In this document: positions 3,101 through 49,906 of the stretch, piece after piece
Position numbering within the stretch: position 1 is the first letter of the stretch
Layout: the number at the start of each line of letters is the position of its first letter
From: Branchiostoma floridae
Taxonomy: Eukaryota > Chordata > Leptocardii > Amphioxiformes > Branchiostomatidae
Direction: 5' to 3'
NCBI RefSeq assembly: GCF_000003815.2
Contig: NC_049986.1
Location: forward strand, 13,137,075-13,201,074
Length of the DNA: 64,000 bases
Translations under genes and position numbers: made by a program
The notes under the pieces: generated by a model
Seen by the model: the letters and a program-made list of their open reading frames with translations, nothing else
Told to the model about the DNA's origin: nothing
Databases searched by the model: none

Positions 3101-6100
3101 CTTGGTAGGTGGGTAGGGGTTGGGAAAATGATGGTCAAATACTTATGATACTTTACTTGATTCAATGTGTCTGTAAACAGCATAAGTTCACAAATTATTT
3201 ATAGATAAATAAAGAAATGGTTGATAGGCTCCCAAGTTAATTTATGAAGCTCTAATGTCTTTGGTATAAATTATCTTGGTTTAGTGCTATTTAAACACAC
3301 ACAAATATAGTTGCTGGTTGGGTAAAATGGTTGTTTGGCCAATCATGCTATAGACAAAGTCTCTTGGGCCAGTTTCTCCTGGTACTTAATAATCATACAT
3401 TTTCATGTAACCTTCCTTACAGGTGTCACATTACTTCAGCTCCATGTTAGACAGCAAACCAGGCCCAGGCAGCACAGCAACCCCTTCACAGGCGCCCTCA
3501 GTAAGGGGCCAGAAGCGCAAGATCGAGGAGGAGTTCAGCGACGACGAGAGCATGCTCTCCCTCGGTGACTTCTCTGTGTCCTCACTGTTGTCTCTCAAGA
3601 GCAAGAAGGATTGCCCTGCAGTTGAGAAATGGAAACCCCTGCCCAGTGAGACTCCAGCTGCAGCTACGTCATCCACAGGACAGCAGGCACAGACAGAGAG
3701 TGAGCCAAAAACTTCGACAGGCATGAAGAAACTGACACTGAAGAAATTGCCACCTAAGCCATCCACAGTGAGCAGGCCCCCAAGGTCTCCCATCCAACAA
3801 CAACAACAGCAGCGCACAGCTAACTCTCCAGGCAGTCCTTCACTGGTACGGAAAGATGGGCCTTCCAACACCAGCAGTGCACCGGTTGATAACGGTTTAG
3901 ACCCCCTCCCCGACTATGATGAGGTTGAAGGCTACACTGCACCAGCCCCAAGCAAGGCAAACCACAAGCGGATGAAAGCCTCCCTGCCTCCATACGACCT
4001 CAGGAACAACATAACAGGAAAGCCTGTAGAATTGGTCAAGACAAAGTATAGACCCAGAGGTCCTTCCAACTATGTGAAGAACAAGCTGAAAGAAAGGGAC
4101 CTGCGAGAAAAGCTGCTGAGTAAATCCATGCCGCCACCTATGGGGCCACCTGGTGCAGGTAATGGACACTTTGCCGTACCGAAGGCCCCAAGGCAAGATG
4201 GCGTCTTCAAAGCGCCATTTCCTGTGGGCCACAGACAGCACAAGCCCTACCACAGAAACCCATCCTGGAGGGACCACAACGGAAACCACAACAGGCAGCA
4301 GAACTATTATAATCTGGGAGAGGTCTCCTCCCTGGAAATCACCATGCCAAACCGCACAGACGAGAACTGGGGTGACAGCCTGACTGTATGTGAGAGCCCC
4401 AAGTTCAGAAGTGGTGATATCGACAAGGTGCTGTGTACAGTGGACCAACGGGATCACAGAAGAGTCGCTCTCCAAGGGGAGGCGAACGCTGCTCTCGGCG
4501 GGGATCCCAACCTACCTCTAGAGAACAACGGAGTGCCTCAGGAGAACTTGGATGACATTGTAGAAATGGACATTGACATGGACGTACTGACGGAGCAACG
4601 ATTGATCAACGAGATCCAGGAAGTTCGCGGGCACCTCTCAACTGATGCGTCGGCCAGCCGTGGCACCCTCACCAGCATGCAGGTCGTCCAGATGGAGTAT
4701 ATGGAGACAGAGACCACGGGGGTGCCCGGGGTAGACGGGAACCTGCCTTTGTTTATTGTGCTGGACACAAATGTCCTGTTGAACCACCTGAAGTTCCTGG
4801 ATGATCTGAAGGACCAACAGATCAGCGGTATGGGCAGACCAGTGCTGGTAGTGCCCTGGGTTGTCATGCAGGTGAGATATCTTAGAAATCCTATGTATAT
4901 TTGGATGATTCGACTCGCTTGGTGATGGAGGCTTTTCATTGTTGCTAAAGCTGCACCATCTTTATAGTTACATGTATAATGTACTGATGCTGTGTAAGAA
5001 TGAATTAATTCCCTTTATTGCTCAACAAGCTTACAAGGCACAATGTACATGACAACAGCCACCAGCCTAATGTATCCTATAGCATGTAGTACATGTTGAA
5101 CTACGAAATATTATCAACAACAATATATGAGCTATATCATCATGTATGGATGATTTAGTCTCACTATTGGAAAAAAGTACAAAGAAATTGACATGTAGGC
5201 AGACGTATTTGTTGGATATGATAACAGTACATAAAATTATATGATGTCAGAAATATCCCTGTGTTTTGGTTGGTAGGAACTTGATGCCCTGAAGTCCCAG
5301 GACATGCTGAATAAGCCAGGCCGGACCCTGAAGCTGGAGACTCAACACCAGGCAGCTCAGGCCGTCAGGTACCTGTACAAGTGCCTACAGAACCGCCACC
5401 CCAGGGTCAGGGGACAGACTGCACAGGAGGTGGGGCAACGGTCTTCCATGAATTGTCAAATACAGAATGTTACATTTAGCAATCTAGCCAATTAGAAGTG
5501 GTTTTCTAAGCTCAAAGCAGCATGTACTGATAAATGTACTTATTTTCTTTGGGAATATAAAGTACAGAACTGCCACCCCAGGGTCAGGGGACAGACTGCA
5601 CAGGAGGTGGGGCAATGGCTGAGTACCAGTCTTTCATGAGTTGTCATATACTGACCTATATTACAGAATGTTCGCAATCTAGCAAAAGAAGTTGTTTTCA
5701 GAGCTCAGAGCAGCATGTGCTGAGAAATGTACGCATTTTCATTTGGAAATGTACGGTTCTACTTTTAACAGTGAGTTTTTTTGCACAGAACAGTACTTAC
5801 TAGATTGGAACCGAAATTTACTGGTACCCTCAACATATTTGTAACAATTTTGGCTGTATTTTTTTGTTGTTTTTGTTTTCCAGCGTTCTGTAAAGCTGTA
5901 GGCATCAATCCCAATGTACTGGTACCCTCAGCATATCTATAAAAGCTGTTTGGGCTGTATTTTTTGTTCTCCAGGGCTCTGTAAGGCTGGTAGGCTTTAA
6001 TTCTGAAATACTGGTATCCTCAGCATATTTACAACAGCTGTCTTGGCTGTATTTTTGTTGTTTTTGTTCTCCAGGGGTCTGTAAAGCTGGTAGCCTTCAA

Positions 6101-9100
6101 TACCGATATACTGGTATCCTCAGTTCAGTTCAGTTCAGTTCAGGGCATCCTTCCGGTGACACAATAAAGTTCCTCCAGGCGGCTCTGTCCCGCATGACAG
6201 ACAGGAGGTCTCCGCCTTGGAGGCCAACATCCTCCTCAGTTAGCCATGTATTCTGGTATCCTCAGCATATTTATAAAAGCTGTTTTGGCTGTATTTTTTG
6301 TTCTCCAGGGGTCTGTAAAGCTGGTAGGCTTTAATCCCGAGTGTAACGATGACCGGGTGCTGCAGTGCTGCCTCATGTACAGCCAGAAGTTCACCGGAGT
6401 CAACGTGATTCTGTTCACCAATGACAAGAACCTCTGCAATAAGGCTGTCATCAACGGCATGCAGGCCTTCACCAGGGAGACCCTGATGTCTGGGATTAAG
6501 GCCATGTACCCAGAGGATGTTGTCACATCACCTATAGGTATGTATGGGAGATGGGAACTCATCCTCCTACGCAAGAGACATCCAACAACCAAACTGCCTG
6601 TCTGGATGTGCCCTGCTCTTTCAACTGTCACTTTTAGGTCCTGACCACCTGCTTATAAATATTAATGAGCTTACACTTATATACGCGAGACCCCTTTTGA
6701 AAACTGAAAGGCCTTTCTCTGATTTGCTGACAGCTGGTTTGGGGGGGGACGTCCACAGGAACTAAGAGTGATGGTTGAAAGAGCAGGGTACATCCAGACA
6801 GGCGGTTTGGCTGTTGGATGTCCCTGCGTAGGAGGATGTGGGAACTTTGACACACATGAATAATTGAAACAACTACCAGTATAAATCAAAGCTGTCAGAC
6901 TTTTGTAAAATAAACTTAACAAAAGGGGTGGCTTAGCTTAATTCAAGAACATTTCACCAGGTTTTTAGATGATTGTAGGATTCACACAGCAGTGCATGGA
7001 AGATTATATTTCTTTACCAAAATGTCTATTTTTTAATGATATTTTTTTAATCATTTGAACACTTTCAGTAGTAGTATAAAACATTTTATCCCCTTTTCGT
7101 CAATGGAACTTCATCTATTTGCAGAAAACTATATAGCATATATGTGCACCATAATTTATTGTTTATGCAACAGTTGCAGGTCCTAAGAACACCATACCTG
7201 TGCCAGCGAAACAGGAACACACGAACCAGACAAGGAGTCCCCGTGCACATGTGAGCACAACCCCACCCATGGCTAACCCCTTGAGAGCCACGAGTCCAAC
7301 CATGGCTCCCCCCATGAGAGCCACATCCCCACCCACGGCTCCCCCCAGGGGGACAGATCCTACCAGCCGCAGAAAACAAATGGTGACTACAGATAGGAAA
7401 TAATGCTACTTCACCTTTATCTGCGGGGTTACCTATATCCGTTGATATATCAAACTGCATTATTTTCATATATTGGAGTAACCAGTACATAAGTAGTTGT
7501 ATGAAATTGCAGTATTTCAAAATATTGCAGTTTGAAACTACCATATGTCGACTTGACAAACAAAGGATATAGGTTACCTCGCTAATAAAGGTGAACAAGT
7601 GTTACATGTTTTCCCATTCATGCGAAGGTTATAGGTTATAACTAGGAAGAGTTTAGAACATGTCAATTTTCAAATAAAAATGTACACAGTTGTTGAGTGT
7701 GTAGTTTTCTGTTCATGTATCATGTTACTTTCCATTTTTTTTTTTTTTTTGTCTCATTTGACACATAGCTACATGTGTATTACTACATTGTGAGATAGGA
7801 TATAATGTTAAAATGATAGGTATGTACTTTGTGTTGACCAAATGGTGTATGTGTCTCTCCAGGCTGATGATGTGCTGTGTGGTATGAAGACACTGCTGAA
7901 GGCAGTCCTGGCTGTTGTACTGGAGACAGAGATGAAAGCTGTGTTTGAGGACACCTGGTACATACTGCACTTATCAGTCAAACATTACTTCATTTGTGTT
8001 GATAGGAATCATTCTGAAATGAAGAAGAACAAAAATTTCCAACATAAAGATGGGAACAAGAAATCCATTCATTGTAAGTTTTTTAAGATTAGACATCCAG
8101 GTAATAAGATGCGCTGAAAAGCAGTTGTGGAAATGATTTTGGAATCATCCACCAGTTCCAGTTTACATCAACTGGATATGATTCCAAAATCATATCCAGT
8201 TGCTTGAGTTTCTGTTTTTTTTTTGTGTACAAGAAATCCACTGTTTTGGAAGAAGCTATTTACATCAGGACCTTTCAACAGTCTGTTTAACAGAGAAGAG
8301 GTGGTGGGGCTTGGATACCAGTTCAAGTTTGTTATCCTTTGCATATTACTTGCAGCATTGCACTTTGTGGGACCAAAATCATTCTCCTCTCCACTCTGGC
8401 CTGTCTGCAGCTTACAATGACATCCAAATTTACCAGATGTGTTTATTTACAGGAGCATGATTGTTTACCGCAAGCCTCCGTGGTCTCTACAGGATCTTCT
8501 GCTGTGCTTCGACAAGCACTGGATCGCTGTGTTCGGTAAGAGGACACCTTGATATAACCCTGACATTTTGAACCTATATAGGACAGACAAAACATCCTTT
8601 GCCAGTATGTTAGGCCATGTTAATTCGATTATATCGCTGACATCATCTGTGAACCTGAAACTGATGCGAATAAAAACAATTTGTCCAAAAAAAGTTGCCT
8701 TCATTATAAAATCGAGTTGGTCAAGAATGTCAAACAAATGATTGCACATTGAGTATGGTATACTGAACAATAGATTCTTCTTCCTTCTTGTTCTTTCACA
8801 TCTTCTTCTTTGACTCTGGAATTTACTTTGGCATTCTAAGACATGATTAAATGTTTGTCTTTAATTGAGGCTTTAGGGTAGGACAAGTTTTCAAAGATTC
8901 ACTTATCCTATCGAGCAAGCACATACAAAAAATTGACTTGCCCTAACCAAATTTTCACTTGCCCAAAATTCAAATGTTGCTTTAGTATGTGCTTTCACTT
9001 CGGGCAATGAAATTCTTGAAATGAAATTGTAATTCTAATGTTGACCATTGCTTGATGTCATGACTGTAAAAGTATATCAAAATCTTACTCAATGGAAAAA

Positions 9101-12100
9101 TCTTACTTGTCCAATTGGGCAAGCAGGGAAGGTCATGCACTTGCCTGAAAAGCACTTTAATTTGCCCTGGACAATAGGGCTAGTGGACTTGTCCAACCCT
9201 GGACTTTTAACCAAAATCCTTGAACCCACTCTTGCTGTCCAGGCATGTTCCTGAGTCGGGATGTGAAGGAGCACCTGGACAGCCTGGTGAAGCACTTTAC
9301 CCGCGGCCGCAGCTACGGAGTGGACCTGCAGGAGACCCTGCAGCTGCTGCAGGATGCCCTGCAGCTGGTCAGGCAGCTGCACAACCACAGCACGTTAGTG
9401 CCTTCATGTCTACCTACCAGTGTCGTATCCTAACTATGCTTTTGTCCAAAATGAAGTTGAGCTTGTGTGCACTGACACCTATTTTCCCTCCCTTCTTTCC
9501 CTCCCTTCTTTCCCTCCCTTCTTTCCCTCCCTTCTTTCCCTCCCTTCTTTCCCTCCCTTCTTTCCCTCCCTTCTTTCCCTCCCTTCTTTCCCTCCCTTCT
9601 TTCCCTCCCTTCTTTCCCTCCCTTCTTTCCCTCCCTTCTTTCCCTCCCTTCTTTCCCTCCCTTCTTTCCCTCCCTTCTTTCCCTCCCTTCTTTCCCTCCC
9701 TTCTTTCCCTCCCTTCTTTCCCTCCCTTCTTTCCCTCCCTTCTTTCCCTCCCTTCTTTCCCTCTCTTCTTTCCCTCCCTTCTGGGAAGGAAATTTGCTTG
9801 TCAGGATGGACAAAAATCACCATCCATCCCCAAAATCTGAACTTAACTACATAAAATTAATGAAAATGTGTTTCCATAAGCTTAAAATGACAGATTTTAC
9901 AGGGAAAATTAGCAACATTGGCTCCAAAACAATCATGAATAAGAGTGACATATAAAATTTTAAAGCTGCACACAGCCATGATTTTTGAAGACTGAAGGAG
10001 AAGGATGTGTCAAGCAAAAAGATCCTCATTGCTCGTTGCTGTATAGGTTCTCACTTCTTGAGTGCTTATGAAATGAGAAATTGTGGCTGTAGCATGTTTA
10101 ACGTAGTCTCTCTCCTAACAGATATGATGGGAGCCTGCCTAAGGTGATCTCTGAGCTGCAGACAGCACAACAGCAGTGTCAGGAGGTGCTGAGTGGGAAC
10201 ATGTCCTGTCTGACTGTCAAACAACCTGCTGCACCCACACCTGCTGCCCCACAAACCACTCAACAACAGGTAGGAAAGCCCATTTGTACCTTCACAATGG
10301 AGGTTTTTGGTCTGTTTGTTTGCTTGTCTTTGTGTGTGTTGAAGTTTGTTAGTTGCCAGAGTTGTTGAGTTGTAAGCAGAGACTGGCTGGATGTGAAGGT
10401 TGATCTTAGTTGTGGCAGGAAGTGAAAATGATGATACATGATAGCCAAAAGTCAGAAACCCAAGGATGGTATTTGTCAGAGGGTGGAGAATGTAATGTGT
10501 GAAATGGACATGGTTAATGTTGCATCGTGACGAAAAATTTACAGAGACTCAAAATATTACATGTAGGTTTGTGATCTTTGATTTCTTGTTTTGACAAGCA
10601 TTTCAGTAAGATGTTTGTAGTTTTATGGTAAGATAAATACATTGCCTGTTTTGTTTTGTTTCTAGGAGCCGACCATTGATCCGGACTTTCCCATGTGGAC
10701 GACCTTTGACCTCATCTGGAAGGCTGTCAGCTACTTCCTGTGAGTCCCTGTGGTAACCCATGGCAACAAAAAAGCTGTGGGACTACTTTTACCTGTGCCT
10801 TTTTATATCTATACTCTTCCTTTTGCCAACCGGCTTTGACTGTAGTGTGTCCTACATTGTACCTGAACTTTGATAACTTTATTACCTCCATGAAAAATGG
10901 AGATATTGTTTGGGGTGCGTGTGTCTGTGTGTGTGTGTTTGTGCTTCTGAATGTTTGTAGTCAAATAGCTTAAGTACCTCTGAATGGATCAAATGATATT
11001 TGGAGGGTGGATAGGGACCCTGCCATGAGTGAGAGTGAGAGTGGATAGGGACTGGGAAGACGGAAGACAAGGTTGATTTTGGGCCCCCTTGTATGTGACC
11101 TTGGTATTGCAGCAGAACGTTTTTTTTTAATCTTTTGACCTGGACGTGCTATGGTCTTGTTTTCCAGAGTGAAGATTTTTGACGGGCTGGACTACAAACA
11201 CTCCATCCCCAGTGTGGAGAACAAGAACATGCCGGTGGACCTCCCCTCTAGATATGAGGCAGTGAGGTTCATATTGAAACTCCATCCACTGCTGGTCAGG
11301 GTGGTGCAAGACATGGAAAAGTAAGATACTGTCCATGTCTCTGTCAAGTACGCATCAATAGATCATGTCCTAGTACTCTGTACGTAATGAATTCTGAACA
11401 ATCTTTTGATCTACTGTTATGTGTAGTGTCAAACAATAAATTGCATTGACAGTGACAGAAACCAATTTCATTTTATGAGCCTTTCATATGTTGATGGAGG
11501 TTAGGCAACCAGGTAATAAGACGAAAGATAACGGATGTTATCTGAAACGTCTGACCTTTTCAAAAATCATATCCAGTTGCTTGAGTAATGTATGTGTCTT
11601 TTATATTGTTAGATTAGTTTATTTTACATGTAGCTGTAAGTTTGTATATATATATCTTCTATGAATGAAGGCATTTGAATCATAGCAGTATGTGTGAAAT
11701 ACTTGAATACAGATGTCATGATGTAGGATTGTAGCAGAAATAAGAGACAGCTATTTTTACTTAAGTCAACCCAATGTTGTTTCTCCCAGCTTTCTGAAGT
11801 TGGAGAGAGCAGAGCAGCTCCAACCCCTGGCTACAAGTCTCTGCAACTCCATCCATGACTTCCTCAACCAACTGGTACCAGCAATTACCTTTTTAAAACA
11901 TTTCTCTGCATGTGTTTGATGTTTGAATAGGTTTGATACAGATTGCATTGTGATGGGATCTTTCGAAGTGTTTTAGAAGACAGCATCCAACTGTAACTAG
12001 GTCTGCTGCAATACAGTAAATACAGACATTTGACATGACAGTAACATACACAGTGTTGCCCAGTGTAAGATGGCTTGTTATTCTGGTACATTGTGCAACA

Positions 12101-17525: not shown

Positions 17526-20500
17526 TCATGCCTTTGTGTCTTGGACCCTGTCCTCCACCTCAACGTTTCCCTTCTTGAGTTTGAGAGCAGTAAGGGCTGA
17601 GTCTATCATCTTCTTGGTAACGCTGGAATAGAAGAGAGACACAAAATGAACATGAAATTTGTCCGCAAATACTTTATTGCTGGAGAATGACTGAAAATCA
17701 AAACTGGTTCACTCGGCAAATTCAACTGGTCAATAGTGCCCCGAAACTTCGAAAGTTATGTTATTTCTTGGTTGTGAGTAAAGAACTTTTTTTGCCGGGG
17801 CGCCGCAGGCGCCCGGCTTTGTCCCCGGTTTAATGGTTCGTCCTTGGATGGGTCTGCTATGGTCGCAAAATGTACCGTGCGTTTTTACGACAATTCTCAG
17901 CCCTTCTCAGCCCTTCAAATAAACGCAATGTACCGTGCGTTTTTACGACAATTCTCAGCCCTTCTTAGCCCTTCAAATAAACGTTGTAAGAATACTGTTT
18001 ATCCATGACCTCTACTCGTACAGAAAACATTGCAGCGCTCATTAGCAAAGTCTAGGAAAGGAAAATGTTTCTTGATTTGCAGTAAAACACTGGTCATGTA
18101 ACATTTGAGGAGTTGTCGTTAAATCGCACGGTTCATTTTGCGATAGCGTTGACGGGTCCGGGTATTTAGCGGAATAACCCGGAATAACCCGGAATAACCC
18201 GGAATAACCTTAATAAAGGATGAAAGCTACCGAAATACAGTGTGCTTTGATAAGTTAAGATCGCAGAATGCAATATTTTGGCATAAAATAATGTATATAT
18301 GGCCATGGGAACAAGAAATATTACGGTTATTCCGGGTTATTCCGGGTCATTTCGGGTTATTCCGGTAAATACCCTCACGGGCGTTGACGGTGCGGAGGAG
18401 GTGAGATTTTTATCGTACAGAAATTGGTACAGTTTGTAAAGTTATCTTTCTGGAATTCGGATGTATTAAAATATAACATTACATTCTAAGGCGTAGTGTC
18501 ATGTGAGTAAAATGAGCACGACATTTGACGAAAGATTTTGTGGAGGGTATACAGTCAAGTTTATTGTGCAACGATTGGAACAGTTTACGTGCGGGTGGGA
18601 GGGGGGCGTGCGTCTATATATGCAGCTGCAGGAGGTCCTGCAGGACATTTTCGATCGTAAGAGTAACGTACAATTTGAAAAGATAGTGATCATGAATTCG
18701 GACACATTGAAACATATTTCCAAGGAACGGTATATAGTTTTTTTAGTAAAACCAGTGTGTGGGGATTGACGAGAATTTAGATAGTTTAATGGTGCACTGT
18801 GCTTGAGCCGATGCGAGGCATTATGCAGGGCATTTTTGATTGTAAAAATATCGTACAAGTTGAAAAGATGGATCGGATTCTAATACATTAAAACATACAT
18901 TTCCAAAGAATAGTAGAAAACAACGGATTGTAGCTAACTGTTAAACAATCAGCAAAGCAGTTGGCAAGATGTCACACCTGAACTTTTGTAGATTTTTGCT
19001 TTTTGTTGGTACTAGTAAGATGTTATGTGATCAAGACAATATTTTCTTTCTGTTTCAGTGACGCCTTAGACTGTTCTCTGCTATATATACAAGTGACACA
19101 GTAATATACAGAAACTTACAGCTAGCAAAAGTCTGTACTCAATAAGATTTTACACAGTACACATTTATACTTCTTCTGCTGAAATCTACGCATTACATTT
19201 TGCATCCAACCAAAGAGGTTTGAAAGAGAGTCCTTGATCCAACCAAATTAGACCTTGAGACCTATTAACAGATCATTGATCACTGTGCATTTTGCACATA
19301 CCAGACTCAATCGTGCCACTGAGCACTGCATTTTGCACACACCAGACCAATTGTGCCACTGAGCACTGTGCATTTTGCACACACCAGACCTATCGTGCCA
19401 TTGAGCACTGTGCATTTTGCACACACCAGACCTATCGTGCCATTGAGCACTGTGCATTTTGCACACACCAGACCAATCGTGCCATTGAGCACTGTGCATT
19501 TTGCACACACCAGACCAATCGTGCCATTGAGCACTGTGCATTTTGCACACACCAGACTCAATCGTGCCACTGAGCACTGTGCATTGTGCAAATAAAGTCA
19601 AGCAAAGAACACATATATTGTGAACAATGTGTGAATCTATTTTATCGGGAAAATACCACCAAGGTGACATCATTTTCAGTGGAGATAATAGAGGCAAACA
19701 ATGCACTGCAAATGCTTTAATGGCAGTTGTTAACCACAGTACTTGCAGACAAGCAATTACCTGGACAAGTACAGACCTTGATGGTGTACTTTTTCAAGGA
19801 GATGCACTATACACCTACATAAAACCATCACTAAGATCTGGTGTGGAGTTCCTCTCCGTTGATGATATTCCAGACTATTTGCAACTTTACAACAATACTG
19901 TACGTGTATCAATAAAAGAGTCTTACACTGGAGACATATTTGCCACAGAAGCAGTCTATCCTTATTACACCTTAAAGAAAGCCCTAGAAGCAGCATTTGC
20001 TGAATCCAACACTTGTCTTTTCATAACAGCACATGGAATAACTGGTTCAACAGTAGCATTGTTGCACGCTGATAACAAGTATTTTGTTTATGACTCACAT
20101 GCCAGAAGTCCCATAACAGCATTGCCAGATAGCCATGGCACTTCTACTTTAAGCATGCACAGTTCAAACAGCAATCTAGTTTCATTCTTGCAACAACTTA
20201 ACTGGAACACAACATGCAATTTTGAGGTTGTCCCAGTACAAGCAGAAAATGTTTTCTTATCAGTTGAACCTACTGGTATACACATTATCAATCTGACTAG
20301 CAATGTTTCTTCTATGATTGAGTCAGAAAACTGCTTTCAAGTTCAACAACAACACACATACACCTTGGTTAAACCAGAGTTTGTATCTACGAAAGAGAAC
20401 CTACAACAACCAAACACAGCATTTCCATTTGCACCACATTGTAACCAAAGTACTGGGAAAAACATTGTGCCATGCACCACAAGCAAACATCCAAGTGCTA

Positions 20501-29340: not shown

Positions 29341-32300
29341 ATGTTGCCGTTTGATGAGATTTTAACCCGGTACGTCGGAGAGTTCGGCTGGTACCAGCGC
29401 TGGGTTATGTTCCTCATGTGTTTCGCTGAGATCCCCGTGGGTTTCCACATGTTGTCAGCGGTGTTCCTGGCCAGCAGCCCCGGCCACCACTGCACTGTGC
29501 CAGGCCTGCGGACCGTGGAACAGTGTCGGCCTGTGGGGGACGCCCTGGACATGAGTATTCCCTGGACAGAGAACGAAGAAGGACGCCGAACTTACAGTAG
29601 ATGTGAAAGGTAATAAGAAGTGTCACATCATAACTAAAACTCTATATCGCAAAAAATATCATTTGTCGTGTCTTTTAAGACGTTTGGCAAGGCTCGAGTG
29701 TTCCCAAAGGTTAACGTTTTTGCGTCTTGAATGTCTCTTATATAGCTGCTGCATTAAATCTATATGGTTTCTTTACATCACTGTGTTTAGGTACAACCTT
29801 CCTGATGGAAGCTTCAACATGAGCTCCGCGGACTTCTGGCAGAGCCACACCCCCGAGAGTCTGTCAGCCGGCGGGACCATCAGCTGTGACAGGGGGTGGG
29901 AGTACGACTGTACCACCTTCACGTCTACTATAGTTACGGAGGTTTGTAACGTTATGTGTTACAGGTAGACATGTTTTCAGTTCGACCGAAGTCGATGGTT
30001 GAAACATATCAAGCGTATCCTGTCCTAGTACGCTAAGACTAACAATACAAATCGTGTTTGCTGATGAATGTGTTGAACTATGGTTCAAATTTATCATCAC
30101 TAGGTTCTTTTCCTTTCTACACCGTAATGTAATTGTCGCATAAAAGCTTACTATAGGGCAATACAGAATGCGCTCTCTAGTCGTCTTGTCATACCTTGTT
30201 TTGTTTTCCCAGTGGGACCTGGTGTGTTCCAGTAATTGGTTAAAACAGCTGACCACAGCCCTGTACATGGTGGGAGTGCTTTTCGGAGCGGTGGTGTTTG
30301 GGGACATGGCGGACAGGTATACGTACGGTATTTTTAAAGAACAATTTCAGTCTTGTGTGGAACTGCAAACTCAAAGTCGGAATACTTTGCAGTAAGGTGT
30401 CGACAATGACGGTAATTTCAACCATTCAACAGTGTCAATACAACTGCCGTCTAGTCACGAAACACATTGTCAAACTGCCTTAGAGTATCCATTACAACAG
30501 TATTACAATTCATTGTATCTCACAGGACTGCGGTAGGTTTGCAGCATATCGCAACGTCCTAAATTGAATTTCTGTTACCCTTGACTTTATTATGGGGATA
30601 CTTGGCAATTTCAGTGAGATACCTTTACCCAATGTCTTTTTCACGACCCTATAGGTTTGGACGCCGCCCTGCCTACCTCCTGTGTCTCCTGGTCCAGCTG
30701 GTGTTCGGAGTGGCCACGACGTTCTCACCCAACCTGGTTCTCTTCGTCATCTTCCGCTTCTTCGTGGGCGCCGCCACGTCAGGGGTCATCATCGTGTCAG
30801 CTGTCATGGGTCTGTCCTTACGAGATCTTTAGACTAAATCGCTACCACGTTTGTGACAGAAACGGGTCGTTAGGAAATCATAACGATTTTGCCTCCCGAG
30901 ATCTGCTTGAAGATTATGTTATCATGCATCTTATTAGCTTCGCCCAACATTGTCTTGTGCAACCGATGTTAGATGAGATAGAATAGAAGCTTTCTCAAAG
31001 CTGACAATAGCAATGGTCCTGCTTGATGGCAAGTGGTAGATTACGTCGGAACGACTGGAATGTAAGCTCTGCTTTACCGGATGATTTTACTCAGCTGCGG
31101 AGTTCGTGGGTCCGTCGGAGAGGGTGAAAGTTGGGGTGTTACGTCCGGAGTTCTATGCAGTAGGGGGGATGATCATGGCGGGAATCGCGTACGGGATCCG
31201 AGACTGGAGACTTCTACAGCTCGCCATCTCACTACCCAACCTGCTGTACATCCCTTACTACTGGTAACGCTTTACATCTCTTACTACTGGTAACGCTGTA
31301 CATCCCTTACTACTGGTAACGCTTTACATCTCTTACTACTGGTAACGCTGTACACCCCTTACTACTGGTAACGCTGTACACCTCTTACTACTGGTAACGC
31401 TGTACATCCCTTACTATTGGTAACGTTGTACATCCCTTACTACTGGTAACGGCTGTACATCCCTTACTACTGGTAACGCTGTGCATCCCTTACTATTGGT
31501 AACGCTGTGCATCCCTTACTACTGGTAACGCTGTACACCCCTTACTATTGGTAACGCTGTACACCCCTTACTACTGGTAACGCTATGCATCCCTTAGTAC
31601 TGGTAACGCTGTGCATCCCTTACTACTGGTAACGCTGTACATCCCTTACTACTGATAACGCTACAGATGGAAAACCCCTACTACTACTACATCCCTTACT
31701 ACAACGATGTAACGTTATATCCAGTCTTTTCGCACATGCGCTAGAAACGGAATCGAGTCGAAGGATGCTTAAATGCAAAAGCCAATAGCGGCATGACAAC
31801 TATCGAAGAAACATCATCATCCCACCCCCACCCTCTTTCTAGGTGGTGCCCCGAAAGTCCAAGATGGCTGCTGTCACGTGACAAGGCCAAGGCTAAGGAA
31901 ATCATCTTGAGCATGGCGAAGACCAACGGTGTGATCCTGCCTAGTCACGTGCTGGAGGAGGAACTTGGTGAAGACCCCGTCACAAAGGTAGGAAAAAGGA
32001 ACTCTAACCTTTGGTAACGAACTGACATTCTATCATGACTAAACTTCGCAATCATTTTTTTTCAAATATCACAATTTTCCATGTAATGTTACTAGTTTGA
32101 AATGTTTGCCCAGCATGTAACAGGGCAAGAAGAGACACCGAGAAATTACACCATCCTGGATCTTCTGCGCACGCCCAATATGAGAATCAGGACCCTGATC
32201 ATCTTCTGCATTTGGTGTGTTCATCATCATTATTTCTCACCGCCAGCTTCGAAACCTAATGCATTTGATTTCATTTCGACATTTACGTTTCCTTCAACAA

Positions 32301-34289
32301 GAACATTTTTTCTTGAATTTGTTAAATAAAAACAAGTCGAGTCATATAACAAATTTTTCATCATATATTTCTTATTCATCTCGTCAGGTTTATCAACAGT
32401 TGCGTGTTCTACGGTGTATCTTTAAACATCACTGACCTGAGCGGGAACGCGCACGTGAATTTCCTCATCTCCTGTGCTGTGGAAGTTCCCGCCTACGCCT
32501 CTCTCCTGTTTCTGCAAGAACGGTAACCCGGTAGCATACCTGAAGTCTACTTTTCTGTACAACATACACGCGTAAGGTATGTTCCCTAAACGAAAACTGT
32601 GTTTAATAGGTTCGTCATCTATTTTTCAGTTTTGGCAGGAAGGTTCCAGTGTTAGTGTATGAGCTGTTGACTGGAGTGGGTCTGATCATCACCGCTGCAC
32701 TTCCTGCGGGTTAGTTTATAATACTCTATATAATCTCAAGGCTTTGGCATAAAGAATTATGTGCAAGTGAAAAATATTTTGGCTTCTTTGCGAGAGTTAT
32801 TTCCCAAAAGAGATACTTGCTGTCACGCCGTTTAGTGAGAAAAATTCACCAAAATCAAGTTTATATTAGTATATTAGTCTCTGAATAACATAATATAATA
32901 GTATATGACAGCTTTTGCCTTTGTGTATTGATTAATTTTTTTGACTGAGAATGTGACTTCGGATAATTAGTTAAATATAAAGTATTTGTTTGTTTATTTT
33001 GGTATTGGACCTTTGGGAAGAGCGGCTGGGACCGACAGGGCCACCCAGTTATGTATGTATATACATGTATGTATGTATGTAGTTCCAGTCTTTCCTCATG
33101 ATGTTTCTCGACAGGAAGTGTGCGTGTGACTCTGGCGATGATCTCTAAGTTCTGCATCACGGGCGGCGCGCAGGGGGTGATGATATACACCGTGGAACTG
33201 TTCCCTACCGTCACAAGGTAACAGAGAGTACTACACTATACTGAAGAGAGTATTACACTATACTGAAACATAGAATATTGCATCTAATTTCCTCACTGTA
33301 TGTGCCCAATTGCCTATTGCTACCAGATGTGACCGTGATGTTGTCTACTTTGAAGTTTAAGGAACCAAACAGAAATGGTTGTTAGCATCGTCATTAGTAT
33401 ATCCGATTGACGATGACAGGGTCATATTACTGACAAACTCTCGTCATAACAGGATGCCTCCACCAGCCTTTCCTACGGGGGTACGGGGATCGTACAATTT
33501 GGCAAAAAAATCGGGAAATTGGCCAGGGGAGTCAGTCCATGCTAAGGTAAATGTTTCCCGCAGCCGGCCAACTTCTCTGGTAGCAAAACTCCCCTTGCAA
33601 ATAATTCTCCCTATAATAGCCAGTGCAGTCAGTCTGGTAGAGACTAGGATGAACAATCGGTTAGAAGTAAAAACACCCAACGCCTGACATCCCTGCAGGA
33701 ATATCGGGATGGGTTCCTCCTCCATGTCTGCCCGTATCGGCGCCACCATCTCGCCTTTCCTGTGGCTCCTAGCGGATGTGTGGCGCCCTGCACCGTTCCT
33801 GCTCTTCGGCGTCATGACCATCGTGGCCGGGCTGCTGTGTATGCTGCTGCCGGAGACCAAGGGTGAACAGCTGCCGCAGACTCTGGAGGATGGGGAGGAG
33901 TTCGGGAAGGGGTGAGAGGAGCTGAAAGGCGCAGATCCTTTTTCATACTAGTCACAAACACACGCAAATTACCAATTTCGTTTTCTGATAGGCTGATACT
34001 AAATCGAAAAGATTAGAAAGAGATGAAATACCTTCTACGTGTATAGCTGATTCTATAGATGTAGATGTATCTATTAGATTCTATAGATGTAACAAAGTCG
34101 ACTTCGACTCGTCAAAGGATCACAGGATGAGGAACCTGTTGTGGTCATATTCTGATGATTCAATACTTTGAATCCGTCGTATATTCGCACATTTTTTCTT
34201 AGCATACTCTTTTTACTTACAGATCGGTGCGTAGAACATGGACCAAGACTCTCAGGCTGCTACGACTCAGGAAAACAACCGTTGCCTAG
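29341..34289 (+). CDS. SLC22-B, organic cation/carnitine transporter-like protein
   Basis: Twelve exons: 29341-29609, 29791-29941, 30213-30316, 30655-30809, 31095-31263, 31843-31987, 32114-32214, 32388-32522, 32630-32709, 33115-33217, 33699-33911, 34223-34289; 563 residues. It is a 12-helix SLC22 carrier: [20 protein letters not shown] start, Cys-rich outer loop with an NMS site, GRRPAYLL loop after helix 2, [19 protein letters not shown] signature after helix 6, [24 protein letters not shown] and [20 protein letters not shown]. The exon 11 frame would read into TGA without splicing; the donor GTGAGA at 33912 links to a short basic tail (TKTLRLLRLRKTTVA). It is the only SLC22 copy on the plus strand, divergent from SLC22-A and convergent with PTER-A. 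Exon 5 ends inside a minisatellite. Substrate unknown. Confidence 0.92.
31244..31660 (+). repeat. 26-bp minisatellite containing the exon 5 donor site
   Basis: The unit is the last 20 coding bases of SLC22-B exon 5 (CTGTACATCCCTTACTACTG) plus GTAACG. The real donor is at 31264. GTAACG recurs at 31290, 31316, 31342, 31368, 31394, 31420, 31446, 31473, 31499, 31525, 31551, 31577, 31603 and 31629, with a decayed GATAACG at 31655. So one exon end and 5' splice site is copied about 15 times in a row. Confidence 0.97.
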
Positions 34290-35347: not shown

Positions 35348-38300
35348 TTACTTAAAGACGAGCCATTGTTTGGGATTCTCAACGAGGATCTTGTTGATGT
35401 CTTCCTGGGATATTCCTCTGTTGAGCATCATGGGTACAACATTCAGCAGGATGTGGGAGTAGCCGTGGCCACCGTAGTGCATCTATAAGCAAAAAACATT
35501 CTTCGTCATTTTCATATACAAATGTACATCATTTATTATAATCGCTCTACGGATTTGGTGCTGCCAGTGTGTCAACATCTGCATACTTGCCACTAAGACC
35601 CGTGATTTTTTTTTCTTTTTTATATAATGTTAAACATTACAATGTGATGAATTAGATGATCTATCCATAGATACTCGTTATTCTATCAACACAGGTGTAC
35701 AAACAATAGAGGAAAGATAAGTGACAAGCGGACTTTGGAGCCTAAGGCAAACACACCAGTCGATGTTTGGTGTCCACATCGTGAGAGATGACAACTTTGT
35801 CAGCATGTCCCTCCTCCAGCACCTGGCGGATCATTTTGATCCTCATGGCGTCGTTCGGCATGTCTATGTCTGCCCACTGGCAGTGGGAAACCTCCACCCC
35901 GAAGAAGTCCCACTCTAGATAGCTGCCCAGCGAGGCAAACTCCAGAACGTCTTCTGTCTCGAAAAACGTACCTGTGTTTGGGGACAGGGTATATGAAGCC
36001 GTATTGGAAGATTGTTGACAATAAACAGGTTACTCTATATCAATATTTATTTCGGATATAAATCAATATAACTACGATCACTGTGCTCCTTTTTTATCAC
36101 AATGCGTCCTTTCTGGCCTTAAAATGGTATTATCTGCATAATTGATTTGGGGGTTGCGTGTCTGTGTTTCCGACTCTGTAACTAAAGATCCTCATGCTGG
36201 CTTGCCATTGAATTTTGTATGTTGTTAGGTAATGACATACCAAGGAAACTTTTACAGGACCTGCAACCCCATGTTAGAGTGGTATAGTCCCTGATACCAC
36301 CTGGCCAGACTAGTCTGATCGCGTGGGGTTGAATGACCTGAATCTGGGTCACGCGGTGTGTCTTTGTGTTTAGATAAGGAGAGGACATTTCCAAACAATC
36401 AAGACAATCAATCTTCATGTTTATTTCAGGCCTTTTAATGAGGCAATGTAAAACAAGAAATTTACGAAAGCTCAAATTGTGTTGTTGTCCTGTAATTTTG
36501 GTCAAATTCCTTTTTGGTATGAAGATAGTTTATATCGATCATGATTTATATAATCATATACCAATTATGCAAATGTACATCTAACCTGCATAATCAACGA
36601 GGAAATCTTGTAGAACTAATGTGTCCAATGATATGACTATTCATAGCATGTGACATTTAAACTTGATAATTGATAGATACAAATTATGCAAATGTGCATA
36701 ATTAATGAGGAATTTCTATAATACCAGTGTTTTCCAGAAGATTTAGACTTCAATACATTTTTGCATAAAAAAATAATATCTAATGTAGGTATAAGGTCTT
36801 CGAACTAGTCTTGTTCTCAAGTTGTATGTGAATCTAGAGGGTATAGAGCAAGAACTTACAGTCAAGATGGGACATCACTGTTGCGCCAACATCACCGCCA
36901 GCTTCCTGTAGAATACGGATGATCTCAGCAGGCGAGTCGGTGTGGGTTCCCGGGTGGATGATGACAGGACAACCTGTCTCACTCTGTGCGATCGCTGCGG
37001 CCTGGAGAACTTTCCTTTCATTGTCTAAAAAAACAAAAACGCGAGATAGATAATAAACTTCAAGGATGTTCCTGTCCTTTTTTCCAAACAGGAATTATTA
37101 TCATTTGACCGATTTTTTTTCGTACTTCCTTGGAAGCAATATGACACAATAATTCATGAATAGATGGATGGCTTAGTTATTAAAAAGAATTTTTATGGCC
37201 ACCTTGTGGCTCTCCAAAGTGATGTTCGTTTATTGTTTGTCTCTCTTTCTTTGAGAACGCCACGTCGCCAACACTATCTTCGAACCCCCCGTGAAAGATG
37301 TCTCAAGTTTGTCACCTGTTATCGGCCAAGAACAGCCGATCTCCCCGATCACCCCACACCTGACGTCAGTCCCATCAGCCCCCCGGGTGATGTCGTTGAC
37401 CATGGTAGACACCAGCTGTTCTTGTGTAAGGCTGTCCATGTTGGAGGGGTGGGTGTTAGCCGTGTAATAACCTAAAAATACAAATATGAACACATCAGCA
37501 AAGTCGTTTATTCTACAGTCTAATATGCTACGGATTGCCGTGACATTTTACTCGTTTCATAACATCTTAGTGTTGTATGTACATGTCCCTTCTCTGGCTT
37601 GGCTTGGGTTATGCTTCAAGAATTATTTCCAACCTGTGCCGCAGACGACATTCACGCCCGTTGCCATGGAGATTTTCTTCAGTTTTCCAACATCCCTGCT
37701 GATCCCGAGGGTGGTGCATTCAACAATGGAAGAGCCTCCATTCTGTCTGAAGAAGTTCAGCTCTTCCACCATGTGATTCTCCTCCCCATGGAAATTGAGG
37801 TTTTCTAGAAAGTTGTACCTTGATTGAAAGATAGATAATATGTGAGTCCAGCATAGAATTGGTGAAAAGTGGTAAAAAAATGGTGAAAACTTGTCCCATT
37901 GTCCTCAAGTAAATATTGAGGGGCGTAATTAAATATTGTACATGTATATATATATACGTGTTGTCGCACTGCGATTATGACTTCAGTGGCGCCTAGATGC
38001 GATCGCAGCTCGAATGCCGAGGCGCATGTATATGCGTGACTTAAGAGTAAAATGGGGTGAAATGAAGACCCATTGTAAAAACATGGAAACGAAACATCAA
38101 TTCGCCCTTGAGATGGCAACAACCTCCTTGGGCGGGCAGAGCAGTACTAAATCCATATAGTCATGCTCTTCCCAGGATTTAACTAAATTATTTAAATAAA
38201 GTAGCTCCGCCCATACTTTAAATATTGCACATACAGTGTTAATTTGTTGCCGAGGTGGCAGCACAATTTTGATATGTACCAAAGGACATTATATCATACC

Positions 38301-41074
38301 TTAGGTTTTTGTTATGGAGTCGTGCACGTCCGTGCATTTAAGACACCTTTTACCAAGGGTGCTCATTGCAGTGGGGTGAATCCTTAGGACCCCCCCCCCC
38401 CCCCCCACTGCAAGGAGTCTCCCCTGGTAAAAGGTGTCCCCTTTAATAGAACAATCAAAGTATCAACTTAAATCATATCTTCACCAACGTTCACCAATTT
38501 GCCGGATTCACTACAAAGATGTTTGGGTGTAAACATTAACGTCATCCGCCTTCAAACAATCCCTAGTCCAAGGAGGTTATATCACATGTGATATAACCTC
38601 CTTGCCCAGTCCAAACCAGTCCAATCCGGTTCCCAGTTATTTAAGAAGATTACCTGTTGATTTGCCAATGGCCAGGTCGCTGACCTTTGTTTTGTTGACC
38701 AACAAGGAAGGAATTGGCCGGGAGTGGGGGTATGCCATTTTGCTTTCCTTCTTCCCATTCCACAACTACGCCCTGGTGATTCTTCTACTTCTACTTCTAC
38801 ATGATACAGGACAAAGTCGCGTCCAGTTTCATTAATGTTGATTAAAAAATAACCTACGGATATTGTTTGATGAATCCCAGATTCTCTGGATCCATCGTGA
38901 AGGACACATTGTCCAGATGCGGAGCATGCCAGGACGGCTCGGACCAGTAGCAGGAGAAGTCTGCCACCAGGTGTTCATGTGTCAGGGTTTTACCCAGGCT
39001 GGCTGGGTCAATCCAACCGCACACTGGAACACAAGTCAGACATGTCACACTGAAACACATTATAGTCAGACAAGTCACATTGGAACACAAGTCAGACAAC
39101 CAATTCGTTTTGTGGTGAATCCGGCATATCATGTGTGAATGTTAGTGAACATATGGTTAAAATGTAACTCTGATTGTTCTGAGCCAAAGTTAATCTCCAA
39201 GCAGATCCTACAATGGCATAAGATAGTACCAAACTGGCCAAGAAGTTTAGTCAGCCAAGAGGTGTCCATTTGCCATGTAGAATCTGCCCCCAGTCGGCTA
39301 GAACAAAGGTTATTAACATCCAATTGTTTTCCATTCAAACCCTGCTTGCAGTGTAGGTGCTAATTGCCCTCCTTCCTGTTTGGTGCTAACTTCCAACTGG
39401 GACATGTGCTGGTCAATGACTTTGTCCCAGTGTAAGTCGCTCGTAAAATAATTAGCACATGACAACAGGGTGGGGCAGCAACACTATTGTTGAATAGAAA
39501 TGCTCCTCCCTGTTTCAGTGGAGGCAGATCCCTGGTAGCAAAACACACTCCTAAGCCGGCTTCACTCCTCTGGCAGCTTTTGATACTATCTTATGCTACC
39601 GTAGGATCTGCTTGGAGATTAAGCCAAAGTCACCCCTTTCATGTTTACTTTGCAAGGGGTTAAACTTTGAGCAATTATCACATATCCTGTGCTGATTATT
39701 CTAGGAAGGGGTGAAATTTTAGTGCTTACTTTGCACAAGAACACAATAGAAAATTCACTGGATGTGTTTCACCGCACTGAAATTAATACCTCTGGTAAAA
39801 GGTGTCATAACTGCACGGGCAAGTTCAACTCCATAAACAAAAACAAACAAAAACCTACGGCAATGTTATCATAACTCAATAAACTCAACTCAATCATATC
39901 CTTGGGCATATCAAGGAGGTTTGAGGTTAACCTCTTTGAGTTTAAGTTGCGGTGAATCTCGGCTCCAAATTGCCAATGCACCTTTCAGAAATTCAAACAG
40001 AATTGTTCACCACTGTTGGAGAAACCGTAATTTATTCATAATTGTTATGTAGGCTCAGACTACTATGTTACAGCATGCAAATGACTTGTCAAATTTTGCT
40101 CCCAACTCTGAACAAGGAGGTTAAAAAGACCTTTTTTTCAACCTCCTTGCTCTGAAGTACATGTATTAAAAAAAATAGATTTCAATTTTAGAGATGCCTG
40201 CTTCTTGACTAAAATTCCTTGAATTCTTATTTTCAAATATTCTGTTCAAGGGTTGACTTGACCAATCAGGAAAAAAAAAGTTTTACTTTTAGTGAATGAA
40301 TTGTTATTTCATTCTGAAAAGAAGACATGTTTTGTTGTGTGTTGTCAATTGGATGTTTAAATAGATAGATAGGATAAACAGATTGAAGTTACAAACATAT
40401 AGCCTGAAACTAAACTAATAAAGAAACTTGCACAGGCCCGCAAACCTAGTGGACACATAGGAGTAAAGAGATACTTTAATAGATTGATAACTCAACCCAG
40501 TGTCAGCACACTGAAGATCCCCCCGAGCCCCTGGTACAATGTTTATTGTCGAAACATTACAGATCTGGCGGTGTGGTTTACAAACATGTCTTCGCAACTA
40601 GTCTGTGAAAATGAAACAAATGGAAGAGAGACCTTGCAGACAAACCTACTTAAATGGGCACAATATACAGTCTTCATATATACCTTGTAACGTTAGTTGT
40701 ATTTCGAAAAGTGAACGTAAAAGAATCATGGTACGCAGTTCTAACTCAGTACAAGGTAAGAATGCGGCTTTACTGCATCATGAAATATAACGTTCGACTG
40801 CAAATACTAGTAACTAGCAAACTATTAAAAGAAAGCTCGACGAAAAATCGGTAATCAACAGACAATAGGTGTGAACTATTCATCCCTGTCCCTCGCGTGC
40901 CACTAGATCAGTACGTGGTAATTGTGTACTTTGCATGTGAAGGAATCGACTTAAAGGCGTGTCCTCGCTAGAAATCTACTGGTTGTGTTTTAGTAACGAG
41001 CATCCCCCCCCCCACCCCACCATAATACCAACAATAGTTGCAGTTGACTTACCTGTCTGAATTTTTCCTTTCAT
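35348..41074 (-). CDS. PTER: PTER-A, phosphotriesterase-related protein
   Basis: PTER belongs to the phosphotriesterase branch of amidohydrolases, cytosolic metal-dependent hydrolases; the mammalian enzyme has been reported to cleave N-acetyltaurine. Exons, first to last: 41053-41074, 38858-39023, 37634-37818, 37316-37471, 36860-37024, 35757-35971, 35348-35482; 347 residues, the usual length. The start MKGKIQTVCGWIDP matches the family. Metal-site residues are visible: HEH in THEHL (residues 23-25), Glu in [10 protein letters not shown], His in PVIIHPG, His in VMSHLD and Asp in [10 protein letters not shown]. It ends [13 protein letters not shown]...NPKQWLVFK. Donor after exon 2 is CC|GTAGGT. 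It is the first of three tandem copies. Exact substrate is inferred from family only. Confidence 0.92.
38111..38182 (-). repeat. Protein-like duplicated block, copy 1
   Basis: The minus strand reads [20 protein letters not shown]. The block at 41614-41690 reads SWEWPDYVDFVLLRPPEEFV on the same strand. Differences are mostly conservative, as if once coding. Neither belongs to a recognised exon of PTER; origin unknown, possibly a mobile element. Confidence 0.4.
38342..38438. repeat. Foldback with a 17-C run
   Basis: GACACCTTTTACCAAGGGTG...TTGCAGTGGGG is mirrored by CCCCCCACTGCAAGGAGTCT...GGTAAAAGGTGTC. The run of 17 C lies at 38390-38406 at the start of the right arm. In PTER-A intron 2. Confidence 0.75.
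38569..38604. repeat. Perfect 36-bp palindrome
   Basis: CAAGGAGGTTATATCACA is followed directly by its exact inverse TGTGATATAACCTCCTTG. Shorter hairpins with the same CAAGGAGGTT arms lie at 39912-39938 and 40113-40149, so it is part of a small family. Confidence 0.95.
39018..39105 (-). repeat. Three-copy acceptor-site repeat of PTER-A
   Basis: CACACTGGAACACAAGTCAG, the plus-strand view of the exon 2 acceptor (TGTTCCAG|TGTGCGG), is followed by two diverged copies (CACACTGAAACACATTATAG and CACATTGGAACACAAGTCAG). PTER-B has one copy at this site and PTER-C a large array. Confidence 0.8.
39191..39621. mobile_element. MITE with TAATCTCC ends, long copy
   Basis: TAATCTCCAAGCAGATCCTA, then GGCATAAGATAGTA, is mirrored by GATACTATCTTATGCTACCG and TAGGATCTGCTTGGAGATTA. 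It is 431 bp with no coding capacity. Same family as 35078-35216. In PTER-A intron 1. Confidence 0.8.
39912..39938. repeat. CAAGGAGGTT hairpin
   Basis: CAAGGAGGTT, seven loop bases, then AACCTCTTTG (one mismatch). Same arms as the palindrome at 38569. Confidence 0.6.
40113..40149. repeat. CAAGGAGGTT hairpin
   Basis: CAAGGAGGTT and AACCTCCTTG are exact inverse arms around a 17-base loop. Same arms as at 38569 and 39912. Confidence 0.75.
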
Positions 41075-46920: not shown

Positions 46921-49906
46921 CTACTTAAAGACTAGCCATTGTTTGGGATTCTCAACGAGAATCTTGTTGATGTCTTCCTGGGATATTCCTCTGTCTAGCA
47001 TCATGGGTACAACATTCAGTAGGATGTGGGAGTAGCCGTGACCTCCGTAGTGCATCTAGAAACAAGAAATACTCTTTGTCAGGAAAAGATCACAGTGAGT
47101 CACAAGTGTGTATCCTTTGTTGTAATTTATCTGATGTATGCAATTTGATATTGCAAATAAGTTCATGATAGTTATTGATTGTACCAACAATAAGTTGTGC
47201 GGAAAAACAACAAACAAATTTACACACCAGTCGATGTTTGGTGTCCACATCGTGAGAGATGACCACTTTGTCAGCATGTCCCTCCTCCAGCACCTGGCGG
47301 ATCATTTTGATCCTCATGGCGTCGTTCGGCATGTCTATGTCTGCCCACTGGCAGTGGGACACCTCCAGTCCGAAGAAATCCCACTCTAGGTAGCTGCCCA
47401 GCGAGGCAAACTCCAGAACATCCTCCGGCTCGAAAAACGTACCTGGAATCGGAAAAGGATTTTTTTCCAGAGAAAACAGGCACACAAGGATATTGGTAGC
47501 CTGTGTTTACACAAGCTCTCGCTGGCTGGGCGGCGGCAATCGTAGGGCCGGCCGCTAGGGGCGCGATTTTAGTCAGGCTAAGGATATTGGCATCGACATG
47601 CTGTGTAGTGTTGCAGTAAATAGCCGCCCCGCTTCGTCCATCTGGGCGTTATACCCAAGTGTATGTGCAGGCTTAATTATAAAGACATGGAGCAAGAACT
47701 TACGGTCAATATGTGACATCACCGTTGCGCCGACGTCACCACCAGCTTCCTGCAGTACACGAATGATCTCAGAGGGGGCGTTTGTGTGCCTTCCTGGATG
47801 GATGATGACAGGACAACCTGTCTCACTCTGTGCGATGGCCGTGGCCTTGAGAACTTTCCTTTCATTGTCTTAAAAGGCAAAACAGTGGGAGTAGATTTTT
47901 TAAAAACTGCGTGAGAAAGACCCTAGATGGCCTAAAATAAATTTCTTTCATGTGTGTGAATCTTCATTTTGGACGAGGTATGCGATCTACGAAACCTGAA
48001 AGATGTTTAAACTTTCTCACCTGTCATTGGCCAAGAGCACCCGATCTCCCCAATCACCCCACACCTGACGTCAGTCCCATCAGCCCCCTGGGTGATGTCG
48101 TTGACCATGGTAGACACCAGCTGTTCTTGTGTAAGGCTGTCCATGTTGGAGGGGTGGGTGTTGGCCGTGTAATAACCTACAAATGGACATATAAGTAAAG
48201 CATTTGGGATATCCTTGTTCTACGGCCAAAAAGTTCTATAGAATGTACTCGTTTTATGAAATGATATAATGTTACATGTATATGTGGAGACCAAGTCGCT
48301 GGCTTGGGTGGAAAAATGTGTTTGGTTATCAGACAAATTTCCAACCTGCACCACAGATAACATTCACTCCTGTTTCCATGGAGATTTTCTTCAGCTTCCC
48401 AACATCTCTGCTCAGCCCGAGGATGGTGCATTCGACAACGGAAGAGCCTCCATTCTGCTTGAAGAAGTTCAGCTCTTCCACCATGTGATTCTCCTCCCCA
48501 TGGAGATTGAGGTTTTCTGCGAAGTTGTACCTTAAGTAGACGATGGATGACAAAAACCAAAGAACGGTTCTATGAACAGATAAGTGTTGCTATGTTAGAC
48601 AGAATTGCAATGCAGATACGAGTAACTATCATATACCGTGTGGATATAACAAATTTATAGCTATTGATTAGACGATTGGACAAAACGAATGGACAATCAG
48701 TTATCAAATAACGTTCCAACAAGGAATGTTAGTTCGGAAAATGGGTTCGCAAGGTTGGTAGCATTTAGGATTTTCCTATATCCAAGAAAGTTTAGTGCAG
48801 GAGGGAGGGGTTAAGTGTTGATGGAGATAAAACACTGATTCTCATGATTTCTGTTTACTTATGTATTTTACTTGCTGTTAGCTATCTTTTGCAATGTGCC
48901 GCTTTCCTTTGCAAGCCTCAACCTCAACTCCTGATCATGACTCTGCGCCTTTCAAACTTCAATATGTCGATGTTTAAAAAAAACATACGGATGTTGTCTG
49001 ATGAATCCCAGATTCTCCATCGTAAAGGACACATTGCCCAGGTGAGGTGCATGCTGGGACGACTTGGACTGGAAGCAGGAGAAGTCTGCCACCAGGTGTT
49101 CATGTGTCAGGGTCTTACCCAGGCTGTCCGGGCCAATCCAACCACACACTGGAACACAAGTCAGACATGTCACACTGGAACACACGTCAGACATGTCACA
49201 CTAGAACACGTCAGACATGTCACACTAGAACACACGTCAGACATGTCACACTAGAACACACGTCAGACATGTCACACTAGAACACACGTCAGACATGTCA
49301 CACTAGAACACACGCCAGACATGTCACGCTTGAACACAAGTCAGCCATAACTAGAAGACAGACATAACTAGTCAGGTCACACTAGAACACACGTCAGACA
49401 TGTCACACTAGAACACACGTCAGACATGTCACACTAGAACACACGCCAGACATGTCACGCTTGAACACAAGTCAGCCATAACTAGAAGACAGACATAACT
49501 AGTCAGATATGAGTCACTACTGAGAACACAGGTCAGACTTGTGTCAATGTCTTACCCAGGCTTTTTGGGTCAATCCAACCACACACTAGACATAGATGGG
49601 AGGAAACAAGTTGCCTAGACAATACTTTAGGAATTTGACGGTGACACAAGATTATTTCCAAAAGCCAGGTCTTCCTTTGGGTTCCTGAAAGTAGTAGGCA
49701 GTGGTAGAAACTGATGATCTTTGTCAAGGTAGAATTTTAGTCGGGCTTGTTCATACATACATGTTTATGCACGTGCAGTAAAAAAACTGTCACTACTGAG
49801 TACTGAGTTACCATAAAATGTATTTAATGCAAAATGTTCTTATCTATCAACATGAAACATGAACCATTATAGTAGTCCTCTTACCTGTCTGAATTTTCCC
49901 TTTCAT
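46921..49906 (-). CDS. PTER: PTER-C, phosphotriesterase-related protein
   Basis: Exons, first to last: 49885-49906, 48989-49148, 48346-48530, 48021-48176, 47704-47868, 47228-47442, 46921-47055; 345 residues, full-length. Starts MKGKIQT and ends NPKQWLVFK. All metal-site motifs are present ([39 protein letters not shown]). The residue after SHxD is Arg, as in vertebrate PTER, while A and B encode Cys there because the split codon begins with T. Exon 2 donor is a good CC|GTATGT. The exon 2 acceptor lies at the edge of a 26-bp repeat array. Confidence 0.92.
49143..49515 (-). repeat. 26-bp minisatellite built on the PTER-C exon 2 acceptor
   Basis: The plus-strand unit is CACACTAGAACACACGTCAG plus ACATGT, 26 bp. 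On the gene strand each unit gives TGTGTTCTAG|TGTG, a copy of the true acceptor TGTGTTCCAG|TGTGTGG. About 13 units are present. A higher-order duplication of 131 bp repeats the block with GCTTGAACACAAGTCAGCC and ACTAGAAGACAGACATAAC. Confidence 0.92.
49545..49586 (-). pseudogene. Relic copy of the start of PTER exon 2
   Basis: The minus strand reads [15 protein letters not shown], as in PTER exon 2, preceded by TCTAG in place of the acceptor. It lies about 400 bp upstream of the real PTER-C exon 2, at the far end of the minisatellite. It is probably a by-product of the duplications that built the array. Confidence 0.75.

Follow-up and report, generated by a model that had tools for sequence, protein, structure and literature searches.

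SLC22-B and its exon 5

The window, a stretch of 64,000 nucleotides of the Branchiostoma floridae genome, carries on its forward strand the gene SLC22-B, which features a tandem array at the donor splice site of exon 5. The elements of this locus are the following.

29341..33915, + strand: SLC22-B, 11 coding exons, 542 aa (homology-based model)
31095..31263, + strand: exon 5, from the gene model and the homologous exon end in the paralogues; its final 20 bases form the exonic portion of unit 1
31264..31269, + strand: donor 1 (GTAACG), where the paralogues have the donor of their homologous exon 5
31264..31842, + strand: intron 5, 579 bp if donor 1 is used, phase 2
31843..31987, + strand: exon 6 (gene model)
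31244..31660, + strand: 26-bp array of 16 units, each with 20 exon-like bases and GTAACG
31689..31702, + strand: remnant of a further unit past the array, ACATCCCTTACTAC, 14 of 14 bases matching

The ends of the SLC22-B exons were placed by homology and splice signals. The joined exons translate without a stop and all 10 introns have GT-AG borders. The protein is an SLC22 organic ion transporter in that it resembles SLC22 structures along almost its entire length: the best structure matches found with phmmer are OCT2 (chain 8et9_A, E 1.3e-99, spanning residues 3-538 of 542) and SLC22A3 (E 8.4e-99), and Pfam identifies PF00083 (E 4.4e-33).

Structure of the array

An earlier note on this DNA described about 15 tandem copies of a unit formed by the last 20 bases of exon 5 and GTAACG. 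Reading the array in register bears out this composition and gives 16 units, as does Tandem Repeats Finder (TRF; 31243-31662, period 26, 16.1 copies, match 91%, score 691). The unit spans an exon-intron boundary, set by homology, with 20 exonic and 6 intronic bases, and the GT is kept in 15 of the 16 units, namely in donor 1 and 14 others, while unit 16 is dead and reads GATAACG. Both properties, a tandem unit across the boundary and many repeats with splice signals, are those of the mirage minisatellites of amphioxus. The nine-base donor is the same as donor 1 in 12 units, has T at -3 in three and has lost GT in one; the proposal that every unit offers a donor as good as the real one is thus close to correct, but the real donor is itself weak (see below).

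The units differ pairwise by 8.3% on average, with variation at 7 of the 20 exonic columns and 1 of the 6 intronic ones, and an extra single base follows unit 8. Units 3-4 are an exact repeat of units 1-2, the trace of a block duplication. Apart from units 1-4, adjacent units are not more alike than expected at random (lags 1-4, whole array, P 0.26-0.68). The match of the remnant downstream of the array was equalled by none of 500 shuffled queries; compared with the same tail region, the whole 26-base unit matches at 16 of 26 positions, and 9 of 500 shuffles do as well or better. A DNA search of the genome found this array in one place only.

Mis-assembly of the array from fewer units has a precedent in a globin mirage that, according to the 2010 globin paper, seems aberrantly assembled in the draft genome (PMC3087553). 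It is nevertheless a very improbable origin of the SLC22-B array: distinct unit variants follow each other mostly in non-periodic order, a unit remnant lies past the array, and further boundary arrays are present in the window and in the rest of the genome. The mean divergence of the units argues against a simple copying artefact, although the copy number may still be off because of the identical pairs 1-2 and 3-4.

Homologous exon ends and donor strength

A genome search with exon 5 yielded at least 46 homologous exon-5 ends, and all 46 were fetched. An array spanning the boundary is present in SLC22-B only (1 of 46); it was found neither in paralogues A, C and D, as the earlier note had claimed for these three, nor at any other of the 45 remaining ends. 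A TRF array overlaps the exon end or starts at most 100 bp downstream in 5 of the 46 homologues. In one homologue (L031) a 16/20 match to the donor region is found from 546 bp past the exon end, where 20 shuffles reached a maximum of 13.

GT occupies the homologous donor place in 44 of the 46 homologues, the exceptions being L035 and L050. With a matrix built from 39 distinct other donors, donor 1 of SLC22-B scores 4.23, the second lowest of the 44; the remaining donors among the four lowest (L017, L018 and L052) probably have their splicing three bases downstream. Donor 1 has no G at +5. This G is absent from 5 of the 10 SLC22-B donors (exons 1, 3, 5, 8 and 10), and the weakness is thus not peculiar to the exon that carries the array.

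Outcome of using a later donor

Exon 5 ends in TAC TAC TG and the donor continues with G TAA CG. Use of any later site makes this sequence read TGG followed by a stop codon.

31265..31267, + strand: in-frame TAA, read if any later site is used

The outcome was computed for every site after donor 1, the 14 intact ones and the dead sixteenth, and all 15 meet this TAA. Units 4, 7, 11 and 14 add a length that is a multiple of three, yet lead to the same stop. The earlier view that later donors would add 26-bp steps and shift the frame is inexact for these four units, and too mild in general because every later site reads TGG and then TAA. The normal protein is possible from the first copy only. 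The array as coding sequence is ruled out by the immediate TAA.

Such uniformity could be put to use if the array were a splicing rheostat, in which the 14 intact decoys divert transcripts to non-productive splicing and the array length, varying between animals, sets the dose of transporter. Each decoy is non-productive, most are identical to the real donor and the latter is weak; length instability of mirages has also been reported, at Adh3 even in somatic tissue (PMC3087553). This role is nonetheless unlikely: published mirages are said to leave regular splicing undisturbed (PMC3087553, PMC3902484), and the lack of the +5 G, shared by half of the donors of the gene, gives exon 5 no special standing.

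RNA folding

RNA structure between units might hide the decoy donors. The array region is predicted to fold better than its dinucleotide shuffles (z -3.65), and the GT of donor 1 has a predicted unpaired probability of 0.13, a value that does not exceed 0.04 for donors 2-13 and 15 but reaches 0.25 at site 14 and 0.35 at site 16. When the nine bases of each donor are averaged, however, donor 1 (0.32) shows no greater openness than the other sites (0.27-0.45), and arrays of shuffled units fold as well or better in 86 of 400 dinucleotide-shuffled and 80 of 400 fully shuffled controls. Folding specific to the unit was rejected as an explanation on the basis of the 86 controls, and masking of decoys by predicted structure appears extremely improbable. 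In the same control, 23 of 400 shuffled units were as good as the unit of the phosphotriesterase array described in the next section.

Other boundary arrays in the window

Three acceptor-side arrays, absent from the finding of the earlier note, are present in genes of two other families of the window.

49145..49506, - strand: acceptor-side 26-bp array of a phosphotriesterase-family gene; TRF 12.9 copies; 15 AG sites counted by motif, of which two read TTCAAG
39020..39099, - strand: the same acceptor array in a second phosphotriesterase-family copy, about 3 units; two end in AG, the third in AA
5884..6335, + strand: acceptor-side array of about 100-bp units in a PIN-domain gene

Three phosphotriesterase-family genes lie on the minus strand, the third with a single unit. 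In each, the probable acceptor TTCCAG/TGTG precedes an exon encoding CGWIDP or CGWIGP. The family was assigned by exon paralogy to 35754-35966 (PF02126; tblastn), and Pfam gave no match for the first exon of the gene with the large acceptor array. The exon of that gene probably starts at 49148, and a remnant of an exon start is found at 49539-49586, past the far end of the array. Genome-wide, the exon has seven full matches and one partial; AG occupies the homologous place in all seven full matches and arrays are present in two of them. Assuming the phase deduced for this exon, each of the 14 upstream acceptors of the large array results in a stop, which for 11 is the second codon. The phosphotriesterase arrays share the 26-bp period of the SLC22 array, perhaps by chance.

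In the PIN-domain gene, the exon concerned (PF13638, E 1.3e-11) begins with GGGTCTGTAAAGCTGG. The real exon start is probably at 6309; upstream of it this start is repeated at 6075, at 5975 and, in degenerate form, at 5884. The array is interrupted before the putative real exon by other sequence that starts with TTCAG repeats.

Two further arrays were observed in the window. The one at 9483-9782 has 23 copies of 13 bp with 99% match and is probably recent because it is nearly perfect. The array at 19274-19590 (42 bp, 7.5 copies) lies directly upstream of a 425-aa open frame.

Globin genes and donor arrays in the genome

Globin genes, for which mirages have been published, served as a control. 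Among nine globin matches in the genome, one (L012) has a boundary-spanning array at the start of the matched exon, with a 158-bp unit in 4.2 copies and the exon start at 1031, 1185, 1343 and 1501. This acceptor array fits the published BflGb6 mirage: four exon starts are expected from the three repeat units of BflGb6 haplotype 2 and the authentic one. Another globin match (L007) is followed at about 130 bp by a 17-bp array inside an apparent intron.

A genome-wide excess of strong-donor arrays was not found with a pattern of three exact AGGTAAGT at a spacing of 12-42, a pattern that would miss the weak SLC22 donor: it matched 70 places and the reversed pattern 86, and donor-bearing arrays are therefore not in excess by this test. 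Eight distinct donor arrays, all those among 30 of the pattern-matched loci, were inspected. Three of them (L072, L081 and L086) appear mirage-like, the array starting, as judged by eye, where a plausible coding frame ends. Searches with exon-like frames beside donor arrays gave nothing over the cut-off in Pfam (three frames; one sub-threshold match, E 0.035), no match in NCBIfam (one frame) and nothing significant in the PDB (three frames). The L072 frame has weak relatives (best E 0.005), some of them from the same region.

At L072 a cysteine-rich exon-like frame ends in a donor array of 22 copies of 21 bp (about 1445 to 1903). Within the array the frame remains open and reads as GESHRCI/GKSHRCI repeats, so that later donors could add steps of 7 residues, unlike in SLC22.

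Comparison with known boundary repeats

Mirages have been reported in the amphioxus Adh3, globin, TnC and PGBD5 genes (PMC3087553, PMC3902484). Those of Adh3 have units of 10-72 bp (Canestro 2002, as cited by PMC3087553); the SLC22-B unit likewise spans an exon-intron boundary and its 26 bp are within this range, in a different gene. In the globin BflGb6 the repeats measure 150-160 bp and cover an intron's 3' end together with the beginning of exon 2; one haplotype has 6 units and another has 3. BflGb9 has a 157-bp duplicate (PMC3087553). These are boundary repeats like the SLC22-B array, whose 16 units of 26 bp contrast with the fewer and longer ones of the globins. The lancelet PGBD5 boundary repeats also have longer units, a 108-bp repeat being described as a triplication (PMC3902484). 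Human variable internal tandem repeats in segmental duplications are similar in being minisatellites with an average unit of about 30 bp, some at exon-intron boundaries (PMC2812944). According to the same source these repeats can alter splicing and give rise to new introns, unlike what is proposed here for SLC22-B. Literature searches on mirages showed no SLC22 case, which is no proof of absence. Set against the published descriptions, the SLC22-B array appears to be a well-formed mirage on the donor side, and its units outnumber those described for the globins and PGBD5. The kind is already known from lancelets, and SLC22-B would add a member with a uniform stop outcome.

A probable tolerated mirage at the exon 5 donor

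The SLC22-B array is best explained, with a probability of about 0.85, as a mirage-type minisatellite that is passively tolerated and has expanded into the intron, the first donor remaining the one in use. Slippage or unequal exchange would have duplicated in tandem a 26-bp segment lying across the donor of exon 5, after which the array would have lengthened on its intron side. A 26-bp insertion within the exon would not be tolerated. Among tandem duplications that touch a coding exon, selection would let pass those that take in the splice site and expand on the intron side, because the mRNA can then stay intact and the protein is unchanged as long as the donor adjoining the real exon is used. 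This requires that the donor nearest to the exon (or the acceptor, in the mirror case) be used, which amounts to a choice of the shortest exon. Exon recognition may favour the first donor, and transcripts from later donors, with their TGG-TAA reading, should go to nonsense-mediated decay.

The intact gene model and the position of donor 1, shared with the paralogues, speak in favour of this tolerated mirage, as do the published statements that mirages leave regular splicing undisturbed. The likeness to amphioxus mirage minisatellites proposed in the earlier note finds support in the array at the boundary, in the published descriptions and in the globin array of the same genome. The recurrence of boundary arrays on the acceptor side, in other gene families of the window and at one of the nine globin matches, favours the mirage reading as well. 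Against use of the first donor count the preference described for SRSF1, which is said to activate the later, intron-proximal one of two donors (hnRNP A1 is said to activate the intron-distal one), and the title of a cited paper according to which competing upstream sites enhance proximal splicing. The lack of greater likeness between adjacent units outside units 1-4 also counts against this reading.

A wider proposal is that boundary arrays are common in the genome and act as length-variable splicing rheostats, in which decoy donors or acceptors wired to stops lower productive splicing according to a copy number that varies between animals and tissues. As a whole this seems highly unlikely.

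Implications

Fifteen near-identical donors with protein made from the first only are a natural test of how the spliceosome chooses among equal sites. The footprint of U1 is cited as 23 + 12 bases (PMC6002489) and neighbouring donors may exclude each other, since the 26-base step is shorter than this footprint; in the view given by that source, two sites 33 bases apart could both bind. The presence of boundary arrays in several gene families of a single window suggests, without proving it, that they are commoner in the genome than the few published cases imply. Such a greater frequency would bear on how introns change and are gained.
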